Shown: piece by piece, positions 1,230 to 12,678 of the stretch
Numbering within the stretch: the first letter of the stretch is position 1
Layout of the letters: every line of letters begins with the position of its first letter
Source: Wohlfahrtiimonas larvae
GTDB taxonomy: Bacteria; Pseudomonadota; Gammaproteobacteria; Cardiobacteriales; Wohlfahrtiimonadaceae
Reading direction: 5' to 3'
Assembly (NCBI RefSeq): GCF_002006755.1
Contig: NZ_MVDO01000103.1
Location: 1-34,377 of the forward strand
DNA length: 34,377 nt
Program-made: the position numbers and the translations under genes
The notes under the pieces: model-generated
Told to the model about the DNA's origin: nothing
Database searches by the model: none
What the model saw: the letters and a program-made list of their open reading frames with translations, nothing else

Positions 1230-2237
1230 TTACCTATAACTTATAGAATAATTAACAGTAATACCAAATGGCCCTGGCGTTACCTTTGTAGATGGATCTT
1301 TCTTAATACGCCCCTCATATGTTTCAGCTCTTGTAGTTAAACCAGATTGAGAATCCCAATCATAAGCTTTGCCAAAATCTACTAGACGCTTTGTTTTTTC
1401 TCGATATATACTGAACAACAAACCTCTCTCAGGAATCTTTGCATCTGTTTTCTCACTGAGAGCATTAGATGTTGTAAAAGTTATTGAAGGTGTTGTTGTA
1501 TCTTTACAATTCTGATTAGCTTTTCTAGTAATTGTTATAACAAAAGACTTCACAAATTCTGTATCTTTTTCAAGGGCATTGATATCCATTTGTTTAAAAT
1601 CAACTTGCGATGGTGCTACCACTGTAAATGCATTGGCGGTGCATGTTGGTTTAGTAGGCGGTCTTTGGTATGCTATATCCCCCTGTACGTAAAAATTAGC
1701 TAGCGCCATTGGGAAAATTAGATAAGCTGAGCTTGGTCGATATCTAGAAACTAATGGGATAGGTTCCTTGCCACCAGAAACTATAACCATTCCGACTACA
1801 TTTTCTATCTCAAAAAAATATTCAACATCTTTTTTTAAAGTATATGAATGTGTATTTTTAGTAACAATTTTTTGGGCCATATCAAAGTCCCATGTTGATA
1901 CAATTCGACTATCAGCTTTTGTTTTTAATGTTGCGCGAAATTTTGCTACTACTTGGTCATCCCTCAAACTACCATGCACTGGATATTGACTCCTCTTAAG
2001 CTCGACAATGAAATTATTCCAGTCTGTTGGTTGATTTACGAGTGGGGTTATTACAGTATCAAATGTGCATTTAAGATCCCCCCTAGTTTTAGGGCCTGAA
2101 TTAGGAGAAAGCCCCACATCCATAGTAATAGTAAAAGTTCTGTTTCCTGAGAAACTACAGTCAGCTAAAGTAACATTGCCTAATAATGCAATGCCTAATA
2201 ATACTATGGATATTTTTCTCTTAAAATTAAATATCAT
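1230..2237 (-). CDS. Two-domain fimbrial tip adhesin (FimH/PapG-like architecture)
   Basis: Probable secreted adhesin at the fimbrial tip, 335 residues. The ATG at 2237 overlaps the upstream chaperone stop as ATGA and has GGAGG five bases ahead; an in-frame TTG further upstream is not needed. Residues 1-25 form a signal peptide (basic start, hydrophobic core, ending TLA before Asp-Cys). The mature protein has two Cys pairs: about C27/C57 in an N-terminal half that I cannot assign to a known lectin family, and C199/C244 in a pilin-like C-terminal half. It ends in an alternating aromatic strand (TVNYSISYR) typical of pilin subunits handled by PapD-type chaperones. Last gene of the operon, where tip adhesins often sit. 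The adhesin call rests on architecture and position; the receptor is unknown. Confidence 0.75.
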   Translation of the reverse strand: MIFNFKRKISIVLLGIALLGNVTLADCSFSGNRTFTITMDVGLSPNSGPKTRGDLKCTFDTVITPLVNQPTDWNNFIVELKRSQYPVHGSLRDDQVVAKFRATLKTKADSRIVSTWDFDMAQKIVTKNTHSYTLKKDVEYFFEIENVVGMVIVSGGKEPIPLVSRYRPSSAYLIFPMALANFYVQGDIAYQRPPTKPTCTANAFTVVAPSQVDFKQMDINALEKDTEFVKSFVITITRKANQNCKDTTTPSITFTTSNALSEKTDAKIPERGLLFSIYREKTKRLVDFGKAYDWDSQSGLTTRAETYEGRIKKDPSTKVTPGPFGITVNYSISYR

Positions 2238-2968
2238 GATTCCTCCAATTGGCAAGTATTCTTCTTACAACGAAATGTTAGCTTTTCAACTTCCCCAGAA
2301 TCCAAGATATAAAATATTGATATCTTATCTTTTACCTTGATCGTCATAGTTTCTGATGACAATGGCTTGACAATAATATCTTTTTGCACCATATCATCAG
2401 CACCTGTCATATTATACCCATAGATAACAATATGATATTGTGTTGGATTTTCTAGGGTTAAAGTATCGCCTGATGGCTTAACCTTTAAATTCTTAACCCA
2501 ATCTTGAGTACCCGAATATTTTTTTAATCCTTTTGGCCTAAAGAATATTTTCATATCTGTCGAAATAACAATAGTGACTTGACTATAATCACTCGATGTT
2601 CCAGAAGGAACGCCTAAAATGTGCAACAACAACAAACTTTCGCGATCTTGAGGCAATAGATTTTTATTACCAACCATACTGACTTTAATCTGTTTCGCCT
2701 GCTGAGCTTCTAATCTTTGTAAAAAAGGTAATGCGACTAATGGTTCTTGGATCTTATTGCCTGCTAAATCCGTAATCCACGCATGCGCTAAAAAAGGGCG
2801 CTCTGTATTTGTATTTTCAACTACTAGTGAAGAAGATTGATTTTGTGATTGATCAAATATCACTCGCGTTCTATCAAACGTTAATTGCGCCCATGAAAAT
2901 GTTATCAATGAGGCACAACATAGCCCTAACATTAGCCCTTGAAAATAACGTCTAAACCTGAACATCAT
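2234..2968 (-). CDS. Periplasmic fimbrial chaperone, PapD/FimC family (second copy)
   Basis: Periplasmic chaperone that donates a strand to fold pilin subunits and delivers them to the usher. 244 residues with a signal peptide ending around SWA before QLTFDRTR. The family features are present: the FDRTR arginine equivalent to PapD Arg8, LPQDRES, the MKIFFRP lysine equivalent to PapD Lys112, LENPTQYHIVIYG, and a terminal Cys pair (RCKKNTC). Tandem ATGATG start with AGGAG ahead at 2973-2977. It lies 23 bases after the first chaperone gene and overlaps the adhesin start. It is clearly a paralogue of the neighbouring chaperone (long identical blocks such as PLVALP and RPKGLKKYS), but it has diverged in the loops, so it may serve a different subunit, for example the adhesin next to it. 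Confidence 0.9.
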   Translation of the reverse strand: MMFRFRRYFQGLMLGLCCASLITFSWAQLTFDRTRVIFDQSQNQSSSLVVENTNTERPFLAHAWITDLAGNKIQEPLVALPFLQRLEAQQAKQIKVSMVGNKNLLPQDRESLLLLHILGVPSGTSSDYSQVTIVISTDMKIFFRPKGLKKYSGTQDWVKNLKVKPSGDTLTLENPTQYHIVIYGYNMTGADDMVQKDIIVKPLSSETMTIKVKDKISIFYILDSGEVEKLTFRCKKNTCQLEES

Positions 2969-2991
2969 TATTCTCCTGTTGTATTAAAATT

Positions 2992-3699
2992 TTATTGCAC
3001 GACCGTACATAAATTACTATTACAACGATAATGAATGGCTGCCCCACCACCATTATCTTTCATATAAAGAATCGATGGTGTATTACCTAAATTGACTGTC
3101 ACTTTTTCACTGCTAAATGGCTTTAAAACCACATCTTTTTCAATTGCCTTACTACCTTTTCCTGCTCTAAAACCATAAATTACAATATGATAGGGTGTTG
3201 GGTTCTCGAGTGTATATGTCCCCCCTGATTTACTGACCTTCATTTCTTGCACCCAAGCGTTATTGCTATACTTTTTTAACCCTTTAGGGCGATAAAACAA
3301 TTTTAAGTTTGATTTAATCATAATGTTTAATTGGCCTGCTACTTGGCTATCTTTTGGAGGTACACCCAATATATTTAAACTCAATAAACTCTCTTTATCT
3401 TGAGGTAGAACTTGTTCACTGCCAACTAAACCAATCTTAATTTGTTTTTCTTGTTTAGGATTAATGCGCTGCAACATTGGTAGTGCAACCAATGGCTCTG
3501 ATACTTTTACACCTTGCTGAGTTTCTATCCATGTTTGTGCTAAAAAAGGCATTTTAGGGCTAATATTTTCCACAGCAATGGACACAGAATTTTGGCTACT
3601 ACGATCCAAAATAACACGTGTTCGATCAAATGCTAATTGCGCTGTTGAGACATTCATCATGAGTGTTGAAAGAATTAAAAACTTTGAGAGATTACGCAT
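2992..3699 (-). CDS. Periplasmic fimbrial chaperone, PapD/FimC family (first copy)
   Basis: Periplasmic donor-strand chaperone, 235 residues from the ATG at 3699. That start has GGAG eight bases upstream inside the end of the usher gene; a longer start at 3720 would overlap the usher by 16 bases and has no better ribosome site. The signal peptide ends near VSTA before QLAFDRTR. Conserved features: FDRTR (subunit-carboxylate arginine), LPQDKES, LKLFYRP (active-site lysine), LENPTPYHIVIYG and a C-terminal Cys pair (RCNSNLC). The gap after the usher stop is five bases. Its C-terminal YMKDNGGG segment resembles classical PapD more closely than the second copy does. Confidence 0.92.
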   Translation of the reverse strand: MRNLSKFLILSTLMMNVSTAQLAFDRTRVILDRSSQNSVSIAVENISPKMPFLAQTWIETQQGVKVSEPLVALPMLQRINPKQEKQIKIGLVGSEQVLPQDKESLLSLNILGVPPKDSQVAGQLNIMIKSNLKLFYRPKGLKKYSNNAWVQEMKVSKSGGTYTLENPTPYHIVIYGFRAGKGSKAIEKDVVLKPFSSEKVTVNLGNTPSILYMKDNGGGAAIHYRCNSNLCTVVQ

Positions 3700-3704
3700 A
3701 TTTT

Positions 3705-6191
3705 TTACTCCATACGACATTGTAAATTTCTAAGAGATTCTGTATCTAATGAATCTATTTTGAGTGAGCACTCTTGATCTGACCACTTCACAATAAATTT
3801 AGATGTACTATTTAAACCAGATAGATAGGTCAAACCATTTTCAGCAATCATACCCACTTCACGATCATGGCCATTTTCCCTATAAACAACCGCGCCAAAA
3901 GGAGGATAGCTACCATCGTCTAATGTGATAGTTGAAATTGATTTTTCACCACTGACCGCTCCTGTTGCCTTATACAAAATTGCACCGTCTGTGGATGCGC
4001 TTTTCACCACACTGTTTTCAATCTCAACATTATCTGGCAAATTATCATTATCAATAGAATAAGATGACTCATAATAGTTTGGAATATTACTGATACCAAT
4101 CATACCAAACAGGTTTGAAGATGCTGTTGAGGATCTTATTCTCACACCTGATACACCTGTATCAATAAGCAATCTCGACCCATCATCATAGACTTTTGGA
4201 TGCGTCGCAATACCGTGTTGTGTTAAGGTGATAGAACCATCAAACCCAACAGTTGCACTTTGATAATCAGAAGTATAATCAGTACTAGTTCTTAATGTAC
4301 CTCTAGATGTTTCAAGGTTATATGATGTACTGAATCTATTTTCAGATGATTCACCTTTATTCTTTCTATTTTCTGCTGTAATTGATGCACGACCATCCCA
4401 TAAATATGTTGAGTATGTTGCCTGATTACTGAGTGAACGATCTGGATTAGAGAATTGAGAAGAATACGTCACGGTGCCATCATATTTCTCAAGCGGAATA
4501 TTTACATATAACCCTACTTGATTATTATTTTTACCATTTTGAGTACTGTGCCTAGAAAAAGACAAATTAATGTTCGTATTTTCAAACCATCCATCTTTGA
4601 CTATTTTGTTAGCAGAAATATTATAACTAGACATATTTTTTTGGTTCCAATAACTGCCCTTTGTGATAGATGCTGTCACGCTCGTGGCAATTGATGGAAA
4701 TGACTGAGTCATACTCAATGTGAATCGATTTTTTTCTAGAGAAGTATTTCGGCTATTAGATTTCATATCAATATAGTTATTGAGTGATCTAAAATCTCGG
4801 CTAGAGAAACGATAACCTGCTAGATTTAACATTAATGAAGAAGAAAAACGCTTAGCATAGTTAACTCTATAGCTGTGTCCTTTTAAAGTTTTATGGCTAG
4901 GCAAAGCAGTTTCAGAGCTAGTTACATCAAATGATACTGCACCAAATTGCTCCAAGTTCATACCCACACCTAAGTTGTATGACTTATATTCACTATTTGA
5001 TGTCAAAATTGCGCCACCATAAACAGAAACATTATTAGTTAAACCGTACGAGGTATCAAATGAAACAAAATTACTATTCACCTCTTTTCGATATTTGGGT
5101 GATAACTTACCAATATTTACGTTATAACGAATATCATTTTTACGTGTTAAAAATGGAACACGTGCAATATCTACTTGATAAGTATACTTTTGCCCATTAT
5201 TTTCTTCAATTTCAACATCCACTGTCCCAGTAATGTATGATGGCAAATCTGAAATAGCAAAAGGACCCGGCGTGACTTGCTCACTTCTAATAATAGAACC
5301 ATTTTGTTTAATCGTCACAATAGCATTACTTGATACTGTACCTGTGATTTGTGGTGAGTAACCTTGTAGATACGAAGGCATCATACTTTCATCACTGAAT
5401 AAACTCACCCCTTTGAATCTAACGCTATCAAAAACGTTACTGCGTGAATATAATTCGCCCGCATATAATTTAGCATTAAGAGATGCGACATCCATAAAAA
5501 CATAACGCTCATCCCATTCTATCTTCTTTTTTCCCTTTGAGTCATACTCATATTTGGCTCTAAATCTTAAACGATCAATGTTAAAGCCCACAACACCATA
5601 ACTGCGTAGAGCATCAAATGATTGAGTTTTACCACCATTTTTGGAACGAGAAAATGTTCCCAACAAACTATAATCCATGATGATCCCAGCGATACCATAA
5701 TCTCTGTTTCTTGGCATCAACCAAGATGAATCATAATTTTCTAAAAACATTTGAGGCATTGTGATATTGACAATCTGTGCACTCGAATCAAAATCAATAG
5801 CAACAGCTGAATCTAAAGATTCCAAAGAATAGCATAACCCTACATCTGTCTCATGCGCTTCTGTTTTATACAATAATGTTAAGGCTTCATCTTTCAAAGG
5901 TAATTCAGAGGCTAGTTCCTTTGTTACACATAAAATATTCTGATCATCTTGCATGTAAAAAAATACTGTTTTAGAATAATCAACAGTCGTATTATTAATA
6001 TTAAAAGTAACTAAATACTCCCCTGAAAATTGCTCATTCTCCCCTGAAAAAGCAGTTAAATCGACAGAATCCATCCCCAAAGATTCTAACAAGGCACTAT
6101 CAAAAGTATAGGTACTTGCTACCGCACTTGATAATACTCCTCCCAATGCTACGACTAATACTTTTTTATATAATAATTTATCCACAGCCAC
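3705..6191 (-). CDS. Outer membrane fimbrial usher, FimD/PapC family
   Basis: Outer membrane pore that accepts chaperone-subunit complexes and assembles the fimbria. 828 residues, slightly shorter than FimD (about 878). The start used is GTG at 6191, with AAAGG 11 bases ahead; a second GTG at 6185 is also possible and no ATG is available before the signal peptide. The signal peptide (basic KKVLVVALGG core, ending AVA) precedes the N-terminal periplasmic domain TYTFDSALLESLG, which has a Cys pair (LCVTKE and GLCYSL). A plug-domain region follows (GYSPQITGTV, TPGPFAISDLPS, GTVDVEIEENNG), then a long beta-barrel with the PFLTRKNDIRYN signature. A C-terminal domain ends in a Cys pair (CSLKI, LQCRME). 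It follows the pilin after 94 bases holding a hairpin and runs straight into the chaperone gene. Confidence 0.95.
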   Translation of the reverse strand: MAVDKLLYKKVLVVALGGVLSSAVASTYTFDSALLESLGMDSVDLTAFSGENEQFSGEYLVTFNINNTTVDYSKTVFFYMQDDQNILCVTKELASELPLKDEALTLLYKTEAHETDVGLCYSLESLDSAVAIDFDSSAQIVNITMPQMFLENYDSSWLMPRNRDYGIAGIIMDYSLLGTFSRSKNGGKTQSFDALRSYGVVGFNIDRLRFRAKYEYDSKGKKKIEWDERYVFMDVASLNAKLYAGELYSRSNVFDSVRFKGVSLFSDESMMPSYLQGYSPQITGTVSSNAIVTIKQNGSIIRSEQVTPGPFAISDLPSYITGTVDVEIEENNGQKYTYQVDIARVPFLTRKNDIRYNVNIGKLSPKYRKEVNSNFVSFDTSYGLTNNVSVYGGAILTSNSEYKSYNLGVGMNLEQFGAVSFDVTSSETALPSHKTLKGHSYRVNYAKRFSSSLMLNLAGYRFSSRDFRSLNNYIDMKSNSRNTSLEKNRFTLSMTQSFPSIATSVTASITKGSYWNQKNMSSYNISANKIVKDGWFENTNINLSFSRHSTQNGKNNNQVGLYVNIPLEKYDGTVTYSSQFSNPDRSLSNQATYSTYLWDGRASITAENRKNKGESSENRFSTSYNLETSRGTLRTSTDYTSDYQSATVGFDGSITLTQHGIATHPKVYDDGSRLLIDTGVSGVRIRSSTASSNLFGMIGISNIPNYYESSYSIDNDNLPDNVEIENSVVKSASTDGAILYKATGAVSGEKSISTITLDDGSYPPFGAVVYRENGHDREVGMIAENGLTYLSGLNSTSKFIVKWSDQECSLKIDSLDTESLRNLQCRME

Positions 6192-6233
6192 AAACCCAAT
6201 AACCTTTATTTTTCGTTAAAATTTTATGATTGA

Positions 6234-6259
6234 AACACTTTGCTAATCAACAAAGTGTT
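6234..6259 (-). other. Intercistronic hairpin between pilin and usher genes
   Basis: A perfect 9-bp inverted repeat, AACACTTTG and CAAAGTGTT, with an 8-base loop lies between the pilin stop (6286) and the usher start (6191). In the leftward transcript it is followed by a mixed A/T stretch without a strict U-run. It looks more like a partial terminator or RNA-stability hairpin than a full stop. Such structures commonly keep the major subunit in excess over the usher. Confidence 0.6.
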
Positions 6260-6285
6260 CCAACCTAGGTTACCTATAAATTAGG

Positions 6286-6816
6286 TTATTTGTATGTCGC
6301 TTCAAATGATACTGTAGCTTCAAAATCACCTTCGCCTGCTTTCTCTGTTGCCTTCATACGTGCTTGAATTGGTACAGACAAAGTACCTGCTTTTGTAATC
6401 GGCAAATCAGTCAAGTTAGCACCTTCAGGCTTAACATTTTCATTCGCTATTCTTAATTCTAAACCAACATTAGCAGCTGGAGTACCTGCAATATTGTTCC
6501 ATAACTCAGAGCTACCTGAATGTGCAGTACCTGGCAAAATAGAAAGATCAACGGCTGAAAGTGCATCACCATCATCTTCACCTGTAGTTGTATCACAATC
6601 ATAGAATTCGATACTTGATTTTTCCCAACGAGATGTCTTACCTGCTTCACTCAAAGTTTTAGTTGATACAGAACCCAATCTCACATCAGATACAGGCGCA
6701 ACTGTACATGCAGCTTTCAAAACTTCACCTGTAAATCTAATGTCACCTTTTGATTGTGCCATTGCTGCTGAACCGAAAGATAAAACTAATGCTAAACCTA
6801 ATACTGCCTTTTTCAT
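6286..6816 (-). CDS. Major fimbrial subunit (type 1-like pilin)
   Basis: Structural pilin, 176 residues from the ATG at 6816, which has GGAAAG just upstream; in-frame codons further upstream lie in the leader RNA. The signal peptide MKKAVLGLALVLSFGSAAMA is cleaved before QSKGDIRFTG. The mature protein has the type 1 pilin layout: FTGEVLKAACTV early, a second Cys in FYDCDTTTG forming the usual disulfide, and a C-terminal strand ending FEATVSFEATYK with the penultimate aromatic. It is the first gene of the operon, as expected for the most abundant product, and is preceded by a plausible promoter at 6892-6920. Confidence 0.92.
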   Translation of the reverse strand: MKKAVLGLALVLSFGSAAMAQSKGDIRFTGEVLKAACTVAPVSDVRLGSVSTKTLSEAGKTSRWEKSSIEFYDCDTTTGEDDGDALSAVDLSILPGTAHSGSSELWNNIAGTPAANVGLELRIANENVKPEGANLTDLPITKAGTLSVPIQARMKATEKAGEGDFEATVSFEATYK

Positions 6817-6891
6817 AAAACTTTCCTTTGATATACAGTTATATAAACTAATTAAACATTGTTCTTCATAAATTAATGAAGTAGGCCATAA

Positions 6892-6920
6892 TTTATACAT
6901 TTAAAATGATCTGTAGTAAA
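6892..6920 (-). promoter_or_regulatory. Predicted promoter of the fimbrial operon
   Basis: On the minus strand TTTACT (6915-6920) and TATAAA (6892-6897) are separated by 17 bases. The predicted start near 6885 gives a leader of about 70 bases containing an 18-base AT-rich inverted repeat (CTTCAT/ATGAAG, 6864-6881) before the pilin start. The match is moderate and in very AT-rich DNA. Confidence 0.45.
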
Positions 6921-7340: not shown

Positions 7341-7805
7341 TCATTTATCATGATTACAATCCTTACAAATCCCCTGAATTTCAATACAGTGATCCTGCAA
7401 TGACATCCCCATATCGCCCAATTTATCGCAAATGGTATCAGTTAAAACTTCATCATCTATTTCTTCAGCTTTTTGGCACTGAGAACAGATCACCATCAAT
7501 GAGTTATGCTCATGTTGATGATCCACAGTACAAGAAATATAAGCATTCAACGTATGAATTTTATGGATGAGTTTTTCTGATAATAAGAAATCCAAGATTC
7601 GGTATGCTGTGGTTGGCGTAATGCTATGGCCTTGCGCGCGCATTTTTTCAATCAACTCATAAGCTTTAACAGGTGCATTCGCTTCCAACAATAGCGCCAA
7701 AATCATTTTACGTAAAGTCGTTAGGCGCACGCCTTGTTGTGCGGCCAATGCTTCTGCATCTCCAAGATATTTCATCATTGTTTCTGATAATTGACCTTTT
7801 GCCAT
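7341..7805 (-). CDS. zur: Zinc uptake regulator Zur (Fur family)
   Basis: Zinc-sensing transcriptional repressor. 154 residues from the ATG at 7805, which overlaps the previous stop as TGATG; a GTG one codon upstream is also possible. The N-terminal winged helix carries VRLTTLRKMILALLLEA and the recognition region TPTTAYRILDFLL (about residues 60-72). The C-terminal dimerisation and metal domain has a DHQHEHNS histidine cluster and two CxxC pairs (CSQC and CKDC) for structural zinc. The wording CSQC plus the HxHEHN cluster is Zur-like rather than Fur- or PerR-like. It is the last gene of the zinc operon, so it should be autoregulated through the operator at 12656-12678. Confidence 0.92.
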   Translation of the reverse strand: MAKGQLSETMMKYLGDAEALAAQQGVRLTTLRKMILALLLEANAPVKAYELIEKMRAQGHSITPTTAYRILDFLLSEKLIHKIHTLNAYISCTVDHQHEHNSLMVICSQCQKAEEIDDEVLTDTICDKLGDMGMSLQDHCIEIQGICKDCNHDK

Positions 7806-8350
7806 CACTCATATCTCTTAATTTCATCCGGTAATATAGTATAGCCCGAAACACCCATTGCTGCCGCATCATTTCTTTGAATGACAAGCTTACCTGAAAT
7901 TGAGATTTCCTCCATGGAACGGGCGCCTTTTAAAGGTTCATCCATTTTGACATAAATGATTTGATTTGCAGGTGGTGGCGGAGAATGAATGCATGCACCA
8001 AAATATGGTACCAATAAAAACTCATTCAATGATCGATCTTCCGCCCAATCTAACGGTACGATATAACCAGAAATATTGACAGCATGATCATTCAATAGTT
8101 CATTGATAGGCGCATTTGCCCATTCAGCCAAAATATCTTGTAACATTTCTTGCGCCATAGGATCAGAGTCTGAAATGGCATTCAGATTCATATTGACAAA
8201 TAGGGTTTCAGGCGTAATAGGATCTTGAGAAATTAAATCGTGCCACTGAATTTTTTGATATTCCTGTGGTGTATTTTGATGAATACCAAAACCTAATACC
8301 AAAAATAAACCTATGAATAACAATCCAACAACTCGTACCAGCCAAATCAT
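7805..8350 (-). CDS. DUF3299 protein, membrane-anchored, zinc operon
   Basis: Function not established; it belongs to the DUF3299 family whose members recur in Zur-controlled loci. 181 residues. An N-terminal hydrophobic segment (residues 3-22, VRVVGLLFIGLFLVLGFGI) is an uncleaved anchor or signal peptide, so the rest faces the periplasm. The family core is visible: NISGYIVPLDW, EFLLVPYFGACIHSPPPP and NQIIYVKM. The Cys-Ile-His pair before the proline run is an obvious candidate metal ligand. The ATG follows the preceding stop by three bases, and the stop overlaps the zur start by one base. It is a paralogue of the DUF3299 half of the adjacent fusion gene. Confidence 0.85.
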   Translation of the reverse strand: MIWLVRVVGLLFIGLFLVLGFGIHQNTPQEYQKIQWHDLISQDPITPETLFVNMNLNAISDSDPMAQEMLQDILAEWANAPINELLNDHAVNISGYIVPLDWAEDRSLNEFLLVPYFGACIHSPPPPANQIIYVKMDEPLKGARSMEEISISGKLVIQRNDAAAMGVSGYTILPDEIKRYE

Positions 8351-8353
8351 TAT

Positions 8354-9538
8354 TTAACCAATTGCGATTAGCATGGTTAATAATATCATCACAACGAAAG
8401 CGATAGAGATTCCCAATATAGCAGATCGCCTATATTGGGACGGCTCTGCTTTCGGCAATATTTCTTTAAGTGCAACATACAACATCATTCCACCTGCCAA
8501 AGCTGATAGATGAATCAAATATTCCATAGATAATATTGAACGCAAAAACAAATACATCAATATTGCCAAGCAAGCAGGCATGATACCTGTGAATAATGTT
8601 CTATAACATTGCTGTTTTTTAGATTTCACAGATTCAGGTAAAACCAAACCACACCCCAAAGGAAAATTATGACAAATTACTGTAACTGCCAATAACAAGC
8701 CCAACCAAATATTCATCATTGCGGTGCTAAAAACAATAAAACTCTCTGGAATATTATGAATCACCAATGCTGTGATGGTTAATTTACCTTGAGTATGCAG
8801 AATTCTATTTAACAATAGCAATGCAACGAAACCACCAATCCATAAGCCCACTGATAAAACATTTAACTGCATCCACAATACTGCCAAACTCAAATAGATC
8901 ATCGTACCTGCTGAAAAACTCAGTAATATTCGCATCAATAATTTATTTTTTTGCTGAATACAAATCCCCACAAACCAGCCAATACAAATAGTTAACCCAC
9001 ATATTAAAGTAAGCAACGTTGCCCATATAAATGCTTGGTTCTTCTGCTCTACATCATATTGAATACTATCCGCCACTAACAAATAATCTGATTCACCATA
9101 TTCAGAAACATTACCATCTAAATTCAATCGCCCCAATACTGTGAGATTATCCATCGTTTGAATGCCAGCTAATCCTTCTTTTAACTTTACATGAATGATC
9201 TGATTTTTCGGTGGCGGTGGCACATGAATACAAGCACCATAATAAGGCACCAATAAAAACTCACTGATATTGGAAGCTTGATCCCATTCCAATGGCACCA
9301 CAAAACCAGAAATTGCTATATTTTTTCCTGATAAAGCTTGATTAGGTAATCGTTGATCTTGTGCATCCATATAGTTTTGCAAAGCTTCTGGTGATATTTC
9401 ATTGTGTGATAAATCAACAGAAGATTGCATTAACAATTGATCCCAAGTGATTGTTGGATAATCTTCTGCCAAGCTCCAAGAATTCATCAACATCAAGGCA
9501 ATGATGGTTATGAAAAGTTGCTGAAGTTTCTGCATCAT
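8354..9538 (-). CDS. DUF3299 domain fused to a ZIP-family metal transporter
   Basis: Probable inner membrane metal carrier with its own periplasmic domain; 394 residues. Residues 1-24 are a signal sequence (ending SLA). Residues about 26-165 are a DUF3299 domain (ISGFVVPLEW, EFLLVPYYGACIHVPPPP, NQIIHVKL). Residues about 168-394 hold eight hydrophobic helices with ZIP features: SFSAGTMIYLSLAVL in helix 2, HNIPES at 261-266 in helix 4, HNFPLG at 290-295 in helix 5, and ALAGGMMLYVALKEILP in helix 7. Typical ZIP proteins carry HNxPEG in helix 4 and H/QNxPEG in helix 5; here helix 4 keeps its Glu, but the helix 5 Glu is Leu. The start overlaps the permease stop (ATGA). No frameshift separates the halves. 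Zinc as substrate is inferred from context. Confidence 0.85.
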   Translation of the reverse strand: MMQKLQQLFITIIALMLMNSWSLAEDYPTITWDQLLMQSSVDLSHNEISPEALQNYMDAQDQRLPNQALSGKNIAISGFVVPLEWDQASNISEFLLVPYYGACIHVPPPPKNQIIHVKLKEGLAGIQTMDNLTVLGRLNLDGNVSEYGESDYLLVADSIQYDVEQKNQAFIWATLLTLICGLTICIGWFVGICIQQKNKLLMRILLSFSAGTMIYLSLAVLWMQLNVLSVGLWIGGFVALLLLNRILHTQGKLTITALVIHNIPESFIVFSTAMMNIWLGLLLAVTVICHNFPLGCGLVLPESVKSKKQQCYRTLFTGIMPACLAILMYLFLRSILSMEYLIHLSALAGGMMLYVALKEILPKAEPSQYRRSAILGISIAFVVMILLTMLIAIG

Positions 9539-10806
9539 TTGGAAACACTCAGACCATCAGCCAAGCTCATGCGATAAGCTCGCCATGCAGGAATCATACT
9601 TGTGAGCAAACCTGCCAACATAATCGCCCCTAATAGAAGCCATTCACCGCTCGTTGGCCAAGATAAAGTAATGAAAATACCATAGTGATTGATTAGAATT
9701 GAGCTGAATATAATGATCATCAATACTAATAAAATAATCCCCAATACAACGCCAATCACCAATAACATCAATCCTTCACAAACCAATAAAACTAAAATAT
9801 CTGTGGGCTTTGCACCTGCAGAACGAAGAATTGCCAACTCTCTTCTACGTTCACCCAATCCTGCTAAAATCGTTGCGGTTAAACCTGCTAAGCCAACAAC
9901 TGTCACCAAAGCTGAAACAATCAATAATACTTTTTCTGCTGAATTCATCATCGCCCAAATTTGATCCATCACAATGCCCGGCATGACTGCCATTAAAGGC
10001 TCTGATCGATATTCATTGATGGATTTTTGCAAGGCAAATACATGGCTACGTTTCTTCAAACCCACCAACATTGCTGTGATACTTTTCGGCTGTAAATCAA
10101 ATTTTGTAATCTGTTCCGCAGGGATGTTTAGCCCTGGAATTGGCGCACCACTTTGCCAATTTAAGTGAATGGCTTCCATCGCTTCCAATCCTATATATAA
10201 GGAGCGGTCCACAGGCGTGCCCGTTGGCGCTAGAATGCCTACGATTTCAAAGGGTTTATCACCATGCTGTGCAATCTCTGATGTACTGTTGCCATGGCTC
10301 AACACAACTTTTTGTCCAAGTTCATAATTAAGATTTTTAGCAACTTCCGAGCCAATCACAACATCAAATAAACCATCAAATTGCTGCCCTTTCGCAAAAG
10401 CCAAAGTTTTATCTCGTTGATAGCGATAATATGCAAACATATTTTCATTGGTGGCAACCACAGGATAACTTTGATGTGTATCGCCAAGTGAAATTGGAAT
10501 CACCCAATCCACTTCGGGACGTTTTGCAATCTGCTCTGCGCTTTGCCAGCCCATATTATTAGTGGCTCCGCCCAAATGAAAAATTGCATACAGAATCAAT
10601 TGCACATTGCTACCGCGTGCACCAATCACTAAATCCGTGCCAGAAACCGCTTGCACAAAATTTTCTCTCACTTGCACACGAGTTTTTTCAATGCCCAACA
10701 ATAATGTTGTGGATAATGCGATGGAAAACACGATTAACAACAATGTACCACGACGATTCCAAGAACTTTTCCAAGAGAGTGATAATAAGTAATTCAATCG
10801 TTTCAT
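9535..10806 (-). CDS. FtsX/MacB-type ABC permease of the zinc operon
   Basis: Inner membrane subunit of an ABC system with the ATPase encoded just upstream. 423 residues from the ATG at 10806, which overlaps the ATPase stop as TAATG and has AAAGG six bases ahead; an in-frame TTG further upstream is less likely. The layout is that of the FtsX/MacB/LolC family: helix 1 at about 20-39, a large periplasmic domain of about 240 residues, then three C-terminal helices. The family coupling segment GERRRELAILRSAGA follows helix 2. This family usually couples ATP hydrolysis to mechanical movement of periplasmic partners rather than forming an import channel. The likely partner here is the ZinT-ZrgA protein. 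Comparable ATPase/permease pairs accompany ZrgA-type proteins in Zur regulons of Vibrio and Pseudomonas. Confidence 0.88.
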   Translation of the reverse strand: MKRLNYLLSLSWKSSWNRRGTLLLIVFSIALSTTLLLGIEKTRVQVRENFVQAVSGTDLVIGARGSNVQLILYAIFHLGGATNNMGWQSAEQIAKRPEVDWVIPISLGDTHQSYPVVATNENMFAYYRYQRDKTLAFAKGQQFDGLFDVVIGSEVAKNLNYELGQKVVLSHGNSTSEIAQHGDKPFEIVGILAPTGTPVDRSLYIGLEAMEAIHLNWQSGAPIPGLNIPAEQITKFDLQPKSITAMLVGLKKRSHVFALQKSINEYRSEPLMAVMPGIVMDQIWAMMNSAEKVLLIVSALVTVVGLAGLTATILAGLGERRRELAILRSAGAKPTDILVLLVCEGLMLLVIGVVLGIILLVLMIIIFSSILINHYGIFITLSWPTSGEWLLLGAIMLAGLLTSMIPAWRAYRMSLADGLSVSK

Positions 10807-11531
10807 TATGTACCTTTCCCACAATCATTAATGTCATTAAGATGTATTGCTTTGGTAAAATTCTGCATGATTTCTAAATCATGGCTCACAAATAACAATG
10901 TCGTACCGTGATCTCTGCATACATCCAATAACAAATCCAAAAAATCTTGACGACGATTAGCATCCAACGCAGAGGTTGGTTCATCTGCAATCAATATGGA
11001 AGGTTTACCAATTAAAGCTCTTGCAGCAGCAACACGCTGTTGTTGCCCCACTGATAATTGATGAGCTTTTTGATGCCATAAATCAGAAGATAAATCCAAG
11101 CGTGTTAATAATGCTTTTGCTTCATTCAGTACTGAACCATGATGCTTAATGCTATTTTGAGTGCGTAATTTCGATAACTGACAAGGAATCACCACATTTT
11201 CCAAAATAGTTAAATAAGGAATCAAATTGAACTGTTGGAAAATAAAACCAATATGATCGCCACGAAAAATATCTCGCTCACTGCTACTGAGCTGATTTGT
11301 TGCGCAATCATTGATGATAATTTCACCCGATGTTGGCGCTAAAATACCTGCAATCAAACTCAACAGTGTACTTTTACCGCTACCGCTTGGCCCTGAAATA
11401 AAGAGCTGCTCACCTCGATAAATGTTCAATTCATCCATAGCAATTGTTGGTTCTGTTGCTTTAGGCCAAAGAAAGTGAACTTTCTTCAGCGCTATTGCAA
11501 TGGATTTTGCACTCTCCATTTCGTTTACCAT
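10806..11531 (-). CDS. ABC transporter ATPase of the zinc operon (LolD/MacB-like)
   Basis: Cytoplasmic ATPase subunit, 241 residues. All motor motifs are present: Walker A GPSGSGKST at 47-55, the Q-loop region FIFQQFNLIPYLT, the signature LSVGQQQR, Walker B ILIADEPTSALD and the switch histidine in LLFVSHD. The FQQFNLIPYLTILENV wording is typical of the LolD/MacB/FtsE branch, matching the FtsX-type permease next door. The ATG at 11531 overlaps the end of the ZinT-ZrgA gene by seven bases, and no strong ribosome site is seen, so translation is probably coupled. A second in-frame ATG four codons later (11519) is possible. Confidence 0.92.
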   Translation of the reverse strand: MVNEMESAKSIAIALKKVHFLWPKATEPTIAMDELNIYRGEQLFISGPSGSGKSTLLSLIAGILAPTSGEIIINDCATNQLSSSERDIFRGDHIGFIFQQFNLIPYLTILENVVIPCQLSKLRTQNSIKHHGSVLNEAKALLTRLDLSSDLWHQKAHQLSVGQQQRVAAARALIGKPSILIADEPTSALDANRRQDFLDLLLDVCRDHGTTLLFVSHDLEIMQNFTKAIHLNDINDCGKGT

Positions 11532-12631
11532 TGAATCACAGTATTTTTACGAGATAATTCCGCAGATTTCTGCCCATTTGGCGTAATCATCTGAACTTCT
11601 ACATGTTCTAAATGTGGGAAATATGGGAATAGTTTTACTTCTAATTGTTGAAGTTTTGCAGGAGTTTGGCATTGCCATTGTGCTGTCATAGTAAGATTAC
11701 CGTGCGTTGTGTGATGATGTTTATGTTCTTCTGAATGTGCTTTGTGCCCTAATAATTCAGGCTCAATCACATCTGATGCCAAGCCTAGATTTTTCACTGC
11801 ACAATTTGCATCTTTTGGTAATACAAATAGTTGATCAATGGCATTCAGTTGTGTAGCCATTGCTTTGACTTCTGCAATTTCCGCATCACTTTTTGGTGCA
11901 TATTCAAAAGAGATAAAATTCGCTAAAGCGCCTTCTAGCTCTAATTCAACATTGCCGTGTTCAATACTGATATTCATATTGGCAACACCGTGTTGATGTG
12001 CGCCATGTGCATCATGCCCAATCATTTCATGAATAATGTCTGATTGGTTAAATGCTGCAGGATAAAAAGTTGGCCAGTTACTCAGTTGTACAGCAAGCGC
12101 ATCATGTGAATCATTGCCCATATATAAATGGAAATGACCCGCTTTTTCTGGCGCAATGATGTGATCACTGAATTGAATATATTTTGGTGCAGTTGAGTTG
12201 GCATCTAAACATTCAAATTGATAGCGCACACCTTTTTTACCTGAATCATAATTGAGAATTTTCTTACCTGAATATTTATATTCGCATGAAGAGACTTTAT
12301 TAGGTGCGATAAATTCAATCTGGCTGCCATGAATTTTTACTAATGTTAAATCTGTTTTGTAGCCATTTAAATAATACGCACGATATTCTTCTATCGTTTT
12401 ATCGCCTTTCTCAGCTTTTGCCGCCAATACACGATCTAACTCACCACTCACTAAATAAGGATAAATGGATTGCCAATCACCTTCCCAATCACTCAATGTA
12501 CGATCTTGAACATCTTGATCATCAAAAATTCCTTGGCTCGCTAATATCGATTTTTCTGAATGATTATGATGCTGATGCGCCCAACTCATTTGCAAACTTA
12601 ATACTGCTAAAACAATAGCCGTTTTTTTCAT
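11525..12631 (-). CDS. ZinT-ZrgA (DUF2796) fusion, periplasmic zinc-binding protein
   Basis: Secreted zinc-binding protein joining two zinc-acquisition domains; 368 residues from the ATG at 12631 (the TTG two codons upstream is less likely). Residues 1-18 are a signal peptide ending SWA. A His-rich start (HQHHNHSE) leads into a full ZinT domain, about 27-205: GIFDDQDVQDRTLSDWEGDWQS, KKGVRYQFEC and IQFSDHIIAP, with the ZinT metal histidines in SDH (157) and GHFH (166, 168). A His-rich junction (GHDAHGAHQHG) leads to a ZrgA/DUF2796 domain, about 212-368: HGVANMNISIEHG, a four-Cys-type pattern, and a second His-rich loop (HKAHSEEHKHHHTTHG). First gene of the operon, directly behind a promoter overlapped by a Zur-like operator. 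ZinT and ZrgA are normally separate proteins. Confidence 0.9.
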   Translation of the reverse strand: MKKTAIVLAVLSLQMSWAHQHHNHSEKSILASQGIFDDQDVQDRTLSDWEGDWQSIYPYLVSGELDRVLAAKAEKGDKTIEEYRAYYLNGYKTDLTLVKIHGSQIEFIAPNKVSSCEYKYSGKKILNYDSGKKGVRYQFECLDANSTAPKYIQFSDHIIAPEKAGHFHLYMGNDSHDALAVQLSNWPTFYPAAFNQSDIIHEMIGHDAHGAHQHGVANMNISIEHGNVELELEGALANFISFEYAPKSDAEIAEVKAMATQLNAIDQLFVLPKDANCAVKNLGLASDVIEPELLGHKAHSEEHKHHHTTHGNLTMTAQWQCQTPAKLQQLEVKLFPYFPHLEHVEVQMITPNGQKSAELSRKNTVIQW

Positions 12632-12655
12632 ACCCAATCCCTATCATTTAAAAAT

Positions 12656-12678
12656 GCAATGTTATATCATTTCATTTT
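12656..12678 (-). promoter_or_regulatory. Candidate Zur operator
   Basis: Compared with the gammaproteobacterial Zur consensus GAAATGTTATA-N-TATAACATTTC, the minus strand here gives a right half TATAACATTGC (10 of 11) and a weaker left half (7 of 11). The plus strand shows the core AATGTTATATCATTTCATT at 12658-12676. It covers the -10 element and spacer of the promoter at 12659-12687, so a bound repressor would block RNA polymerase. The consensus is recalled, not recomputed. Confidence 0.6.

Follow-up and report, generated by a model that had tools for sequence, protein, structure and literature searches.

Known ZinT and ZrgA systems

Stand-alone ZinT proteins, such as those of E. coli and Salmonella, consist of a complete lipocalin-like domain with its histidines, and are described as separate proteins that help ZnuA. 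In the AdcA proteins of Streptococcus and Staphylococcus, ZinT is covalently joined to an ABC zinc carrier and keeps its His triad (PMC8878332); this carrier is of cluster A-I (ZnuA), pairs with an ABC-3 permease, and bears ZinT at its C-terminus in Gram-positive hosts. In ZrgA of V. cholerae and PA4063 of P. aeruginosa, which are encoded in zrgA-ATPase-permease-DUF3299 operons, a disordered His-rich N-terminal stretch precedes the zinc site (PMC8561739, PMC9820375). What this widespread operon does is disputed, with the Vibrio work arguing for zinc import and the Pseudomonas work for export of a metal complex. When ZnuA is missing, V. cholerae requires ZrgA to grow in low zinc (PMC9820375), and the V. 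parahaemolyticus protein has been reported as required for zinc acquisition (PMC9817125), whereas the case made for PA4063-4066 is that of a MacB-type exporter tied to pyochelin-cobalt (PMC11481552).

The Wohlfahrtiimonas gene analyzed here combines elements of these systems. Like stand-alone ZinT it encodes the complete lipocalin-like domain with its histidines, and like AdcA it joins ZinT covalently to a carrier, but ZinT is N-terminal, the host is Gram-negative, and the carrier has the unrelated ZrgA fold and is paired with a MacB-like permease. Compared to V. cholerae ZrgA and PA4063, the ZrgA domain, zinc site 1, disulfide cysteines, and operon order are the same, but a ZinT domain is found in place of the disordered tail and the operon includes a ZIP fusion that theirs do not have. 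Hence, a ZinT joined to its carrier is already known from AdcA (PMC8878332), and what is new is the unrelated carrier fold and the different transporter class. The earlier note on this DNA had treated ZinT and ZrgA as families normally thought of as independent, a fair description given that our literature search found no joint naming of ZinT and DUF2796.

A single gene encodes complete ZinT and ZrgA domains

The window, i.e. the whole 34,377-nucleotide stretch of DNA that was analyzed, is an entire contig of a Wohlfahrtiimonas genome, and the fusion gene is internal to it. Its features are as follows:

12631 (ATG) to 11525, minus strand: zinT-zrgA fusion gene, a single open reading frame of 368 amino acids, stop at 11525-11527
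12578..12631, minus strand: predicted Sec signal peptide, residues 1-18, MKKTAIVLAVLSLQMSWA, from direct reading of the sequence
12014..12541, minus strand: ZinT domain (PF09223), residues 31-206
11528..12001, minus strand: ZrgA domain (PF10986), residues 211-368
11990..12016, minus strand: junction HDAHGAHQH, residues 206-214, where the last ZinT histidine leads into the site-1 His-x-His of ZrgA

The reading frame lies at the coordinates first proposed, without internal stops across its 368 codons in the window translation. In a Pfam profile search, residues 31-206 matched PF09223 over positions 5-181 of 181 (E=1.4e-76, 256.8 bits vs a cut-off of 27), and residues 211-368 matched PF10986 (ZrgA, formerly DUF2796) over positions 1-161 of 161 (E=1.6e-44, 152.1 bits vs a cut-off of 27.4), so that each half belongs to its own family, and the ZinT half is complete with its metal histidines, as the earlier note had claimed. 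The same search gave no match to PF01297 (ZnuA-type carriers) in the fusion protein. Against the NCBIfam equivalog models, both halves scored below cut-off, with 281.7 vs 300 bits for ZinT (NF007639) and 97.3 vs 185 bits for ZrgA (NF047873), a normal outcome when members of a family are divergent or fused; these scores thus speak for domain membership rather than for an ordinary ZinT or ZrgA gene.

Fold and zinc ligands

An AlphaFold2 model of the fusion protein, built on an alignment of 25 rows, reached a mean pLDDT of 79.5 and a low pTM of 0.54. Residues 21-206 of this model superpose on the ZinT proteins of E. coli and Salmonella with Z scores of 28.6-28.8 and rmsd of 1.2-1.3 (28.8 and 1.3 over 186 residues for 1oej), consistent with the lipocalin-like ZinT fold. 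Residues 212-368 take up the noncanonical ferredoxin-like fold of V. cholerae ZrgA (8f1b, Z 21.3, rmsd 1.3), with a Z score of 20.6 in the fold comparison with PA4063 (7bgo). The linker at residues 207-214 has low pLDDT and is disordered or flexible in the model, in which contact between the ZinT and ZrgA halves was not seen.

The ZinT ligand histidines H157, H166, and H168, along with H206, are invariant in 25 aligned ZinT domains, and the spacing of the first three is that of the AdcA triad His468, His477, and His479 (PMC8878332). In most of the aligned stand-alone ZinTs H206 is the final residue, and the fusion continues from there: H212 and H214, which lie six to eight residues further on, align with His16 and His18 of PA4063 and His35 and His37 of V. 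cholerae ZrgA (alignment to 7AHW and 8EZW). Among the other site-1 ligands, E243 aligns with PA4063 Glu47 and V. cholerae Glu66, while the fourth is possibly H310, two positions off from V. cholerae His184 and PA4063 His120. C277 and C321, invariant in the three known fusions (see below), align with the cysteines of PA4063 (Cys100-Cys195 in V. cholerae). The ZinT domain thus stands where ZrgA usually has its His-rich tail.

All three histidine clusters noticed earlier are present: HQHHNH at the predicted mature N-terminus, which by direct reading follows residues 1-18; H206, H209, H212, and H214 at the junction; and the loop at about 296-310 of the ZrgA half. The last of these, noted earlier within the ZrgA domain, is there in the window, but its His-richness is not conserved: the loop evolves with a dN/dS of 0.62 against the uncultured relative described below, which has few histidines there. 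We therefore set it aside as an argument.

The fusion recurs and is under purifying selection

The same fusion, with the same operon, is encoded by W. populi (85% identity) and by an uncultured Wohlfahrtiimonas metagenome-assembled genome (MAG, 55%). Relative to these two, dN/dS is 0.12 and 0.24 for the ZinT half, 0.09 and 0.28 for the ZrgA half, and 0.14 and 0.22 for the junction, the latter from 17 codons only, which indicates purifying selection on both halves. That an assembly or gene-calling artefact joined two genes is thus extremely improbable: the same single open reading frame was found in three separate assemblies at 85% and 55% identity, purifying selection spans the junction, and the gene sits inside its contig.

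The fusion heads a zrg operon

Downstream of the fusion gene, which is the first of the operon, the following genes run in the same direction:

10806..11531, minus strand: ZrgC-type ABC ATPase of the LolD/MacB class (PF00005, E=5.5e-32)
9535..10824, minus strand: ZrgB-type permease with MacB-like periplasmic and FtsX domains (PF02687, E=9.5e-16; PF12704, E=9.7e-12)
8354..9538, minus strand: ZrgE-type DUF3299-ZIP fusion (PF11736, E=3.1e-34, residues 45-160; PF02535, E=5e-17, residues 253-387)
7805..8350, minus strand: second DUF3299 (ZrgE-type) protein (PF11736, E=1.4e-37)
7341..7808, minus strand: Fur-family repressor, probably Zur (PF01475, E=4.1e-14)

The order zrgA-ATPase-MacB/FtsX permease-DUF3299 agrees with most of the 68 loci used for comparison. 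We take DUF3299 to be the ZrgE family, based on its place in the operon, which is that of V. cholerae ZrgE and PA4066. The small single-TM protein ZrgD is missing in some Vibrionaceae (PMC9817125). The DUF3299-ZIP fusion is kept in W. populi and in the MAG, and 368 further genomes sampled from the class gave no other case. Its ZIP domain reads HNFPLG at the second metal motif, without the usual glutamate; ZIP proteins usually read HNxPEG there. A chaperone-usher type fimbrial cluster, with a major subunit, an usher, two chaperones, and a putative tip protein, adjoins the zinc operon (window positions 1230-6900, minus strand).

Upstream of the fusion gene lies a candidate operator:

12652..12677, strand not applicable: Zur-box-like imperfect palindrome AAATGAAATGATATAACATTGCATTT, 5' of zinT-zrgA

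A 28-base stretch holding this 26-base palindrome does not differ between the three species, and the palindrome stays identical in the MAG although the flanking upstream DNA has diverged. The window contains one copy, against an expectation of 0, and the core pattern has no other zero-mismatch site in the genome. Near matches elsewhere in the genome marked no recognizable zinc gene, and their count was close to that of a reversed control. The palindrome fits 18 of 23 positions of the gamma-proteobacterial Zur consensus (16 or fewer in shuffles). A Fur-family gene closes the operon in all three species, and Fur/Zur-type genes are found near zrgA in many other loci. With a Fur-family gene in the operon and a conserved Zur-like palindrome, this operon would likely be under Zur control.

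A probable two-stage zinc capture protein

There are good grounds to link ZinT functionally to the Zrg system, because a real fusion heads a ZrgA/MacB-type ABC operon, and this suggests that ZinT is able to supply a ZrgA-type transporter with zinc. The fusion is probably a secreted protein that captures zinc in two stages for the Zrg ABC system, an analogue of AdcA built on a non-classical carrier. In this model, we infer regulation by Zur, passage of zinc from one half to the other, docking of the protein on ZrgB, and net import. Upon zinc starvation, the Zur-type repressor encoded at the end of the operon would leave the promoter, and the fused protein would be exported to the periplasm, where the ZinT half and the N-terminal His tail would scavenge zinc. 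The metal would then pass over the short linker (H206, H209, H212, H214) to ZrgA site 1 (H212, H214, E243, and perhaps H310). The ZrgA half would dock on the MacB-like permease ZrgB, and ZrgBC/ZrgE would spend ATP to move zinc onward. ZinT would here replace the disordered His-rich tail that adjoins site 1 in other ZrgA proteins. As the two domains are covalently paired, transfer from scavenger to carrier could be measured within one molecule.

The earlier note had proposed that ZinT feeds a ZrgA/FtsX-type ABC system rather than ZnuA. The first part of this proposal agrees with the fusion gene being the first of a ZrgA/MacB-type operon, but “rather than ZnuA” is too strong, as ZnuA-family binding proteins and ABC-3 permeases are present in every genome of the genus (n=6), so that both systems could in principle be supplied by the fusion. 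One such ZnuA-type carrier, with a His-rich loop, is unlinked and located directly behind a DprA-like gene (L105 1432-2349, plus strand); its likely znuC and znuB are on other contigs (G000:C53/C54). The retained ZnuA proteins also lend some weight to a reading in which the protein mainly buffers zinc in the periplasm or shuttles it to ZnuA/ZnuBC or other acceptors, and is linked to ZrgBC by co-regulation only. Salmonella ZinT assists ZnuA, according to work cited in PMC8561739 and PMC8878332, and the zinc binding of PA4063 is only micromolar (PMC8561739). However, the zrg operon starts with the fusion gene, the ZrgA half retains the conserved site 1, and a ZinT that serves ZnuA would have no need of a fusion to ZrgA; two congeners do keep a separate ZinT. 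On balance, we consider a mainly buffering role unlikely.

The membership of the ATPase and permease in the LolD/MacB class raises another alternative, in which the ABC genes encode an exporter of the MacB type and the fused protein acts in the periplasm, as a sensor or adaptor governing the export of a metal complex in zinc starvation. Indeed, permease mutants of P. aeruginosa build up cobalt in a pyochelin-dependent manner (PMC11481552). We searched the six genomes of the genus for NRPS condensation domains and found none, while control genomes gave the expected matches; hence pyochelin cannot be made by the known route, and a role in pyochelin-cobalt export cannot apply here. In addition, the ZinT and ZIP partners and the adjacency to znuABC point to uptake, and Vibrio ZrgA mutants are zinc-starved (PMC9820375). 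An exporter is therefore quite unlikely in this genus, and for the broader dispute the ZrgA-ZinT and DUF3299-ZIP fusions in one operon provide independent evidence of zinc uptake, from an organism that lacks the NRPS genes for pyochelin.

Within the two-stage capture model, how zinc crosses the membrane could take a less expected form. MacB/FtsX-type permeases are thought to transmit force and not to pass substrate (PMC11481552), which makes it possible that ZrgBC passes no zinc itself and is an ATP-driven loader, handing zinc from ZinT-ZrgA to DUF3299 (ZrgE) and on to the fused ZIP channel. We regard this version as rather improbable, since the ZIP domain has HNFPLG in place of HNxPEG and V. 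cholerae zrgE knockouts, in work cited in PMC9820375, had no growth defect.

Gene neighborhoods of other ZrgA loci

Elsewhere, ZrgA loci adjoin znuABC genes, ZIP genes, and in one case a CobW-family gene, an arrangement that also favors a role in zinc uptake. ZIP genes are found directly upstream of zrgA or divergent from it in L182 (3052-3858), L235 (7006-7779), and L257 (5225-6046), all on the minus strand, and in L179 (genome G624) zrgA-zrgC-zrgB and DUF3299 come directly after znuC-znuB-znuA, all on one strand. In L199, L225, and L194, zrgA lies beside ZnuA-family genes (a full znuCBA in L199 and L225), and zrgB and zrgC were not found around it in the stretches examined; this suggests that ZrgA can work with ZnuABC.

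Distribution and origin of the fusion

Across six Wohlfahrtiimonas genomes, three encode the fusion, two a separate ZinT without ZrgA, and one neither. In two overlapping samples, a ZrgA scoring over cut-off was found in 42 of 369 genomes from the class and in 66 of 398 from the phylum. Based on open-frame length, with outliers read individually, none of the approximately 110 sampled ZrgA-positive genomes outside Wohlfahrtiimonas had a ZinT-ZrgA fusion. Likewise, ZinT was absent from 68 zrg neighborhoods of other genomes, no other fusion with ZrgA was found among the best 80 loci listed in a genome-wide ZinT scan, and none occurred in 128 plasmid records.

Several candidates were rejected upon inspection. 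The listed match at 32-366 in Paracoccus caeni (L016) corresponds to a 227-aa ZinT that ends at the usual AH and stop; long frames near ZrgA in G156, G624, G770, and G648 proved to be neighbor genes or spurious extensions on the upstream side, and not ZinT; and a 363-aa frame in G324 matches ZrgA only. The internal loop of this G324 ZrgA (L181 1-1089, minus strand) is a long His/Glu/Asp repeat that runs off the contig end.

The fusion likely arose once. In a tree of the Wohlfahrtiimonas ATPase and permease with 61 other zrg pairs, the pair clusters with six loci (SH-aLRT 99), a sister set in which a ZIP gene lies directly 5' of zrgA in L182 and L235 and znuCBA is found in L179. The fused ZinT groups with Enterobacterales ZinT (support 96/93), and a clade of the fused ZinT with the genus's own separate ZinT was not rejected (p-AU 0.34), so that a derivation from the latter is neither supported nor rejected by the trees.

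ZinT nested in a ZnuA carrier

In Clostridia bacterium UC5.1-1D10 (L018 5578-7062, plus strand) and in Anaerotignum lactatifermentans (L019, same layout), ZinT is nested within ZnuA, with ZnuA profile positions 1-93, then ZinT, then ZnuA 91-263, i.e. an insertion at about position 92. The nested ZinT sits exactly in the His-rich loop of ZnuA (EHEHEEDHH...DHEEEIDEHVW), and znuC- and znuB-like genes are directly downstream. As in the Wohlfahrtiimonas fusion, ZinT replaces or extends a His-rich segment by the zinc site of the carrier, but in Anaerotignum it is inserted inside ZnuA, in a znuABC operon of Bacillota, whereas in Wohlfahrtiimonas it is N-terminal to ZrgA. Since both new cases place ZinT where a His-rich segment normally flanks the zinc site of the carrier, we hypothesize, taking AdcA into account as well, that ZinT may be a mobile, folded equivalent of the flexible His-rich segments that collect zinc.
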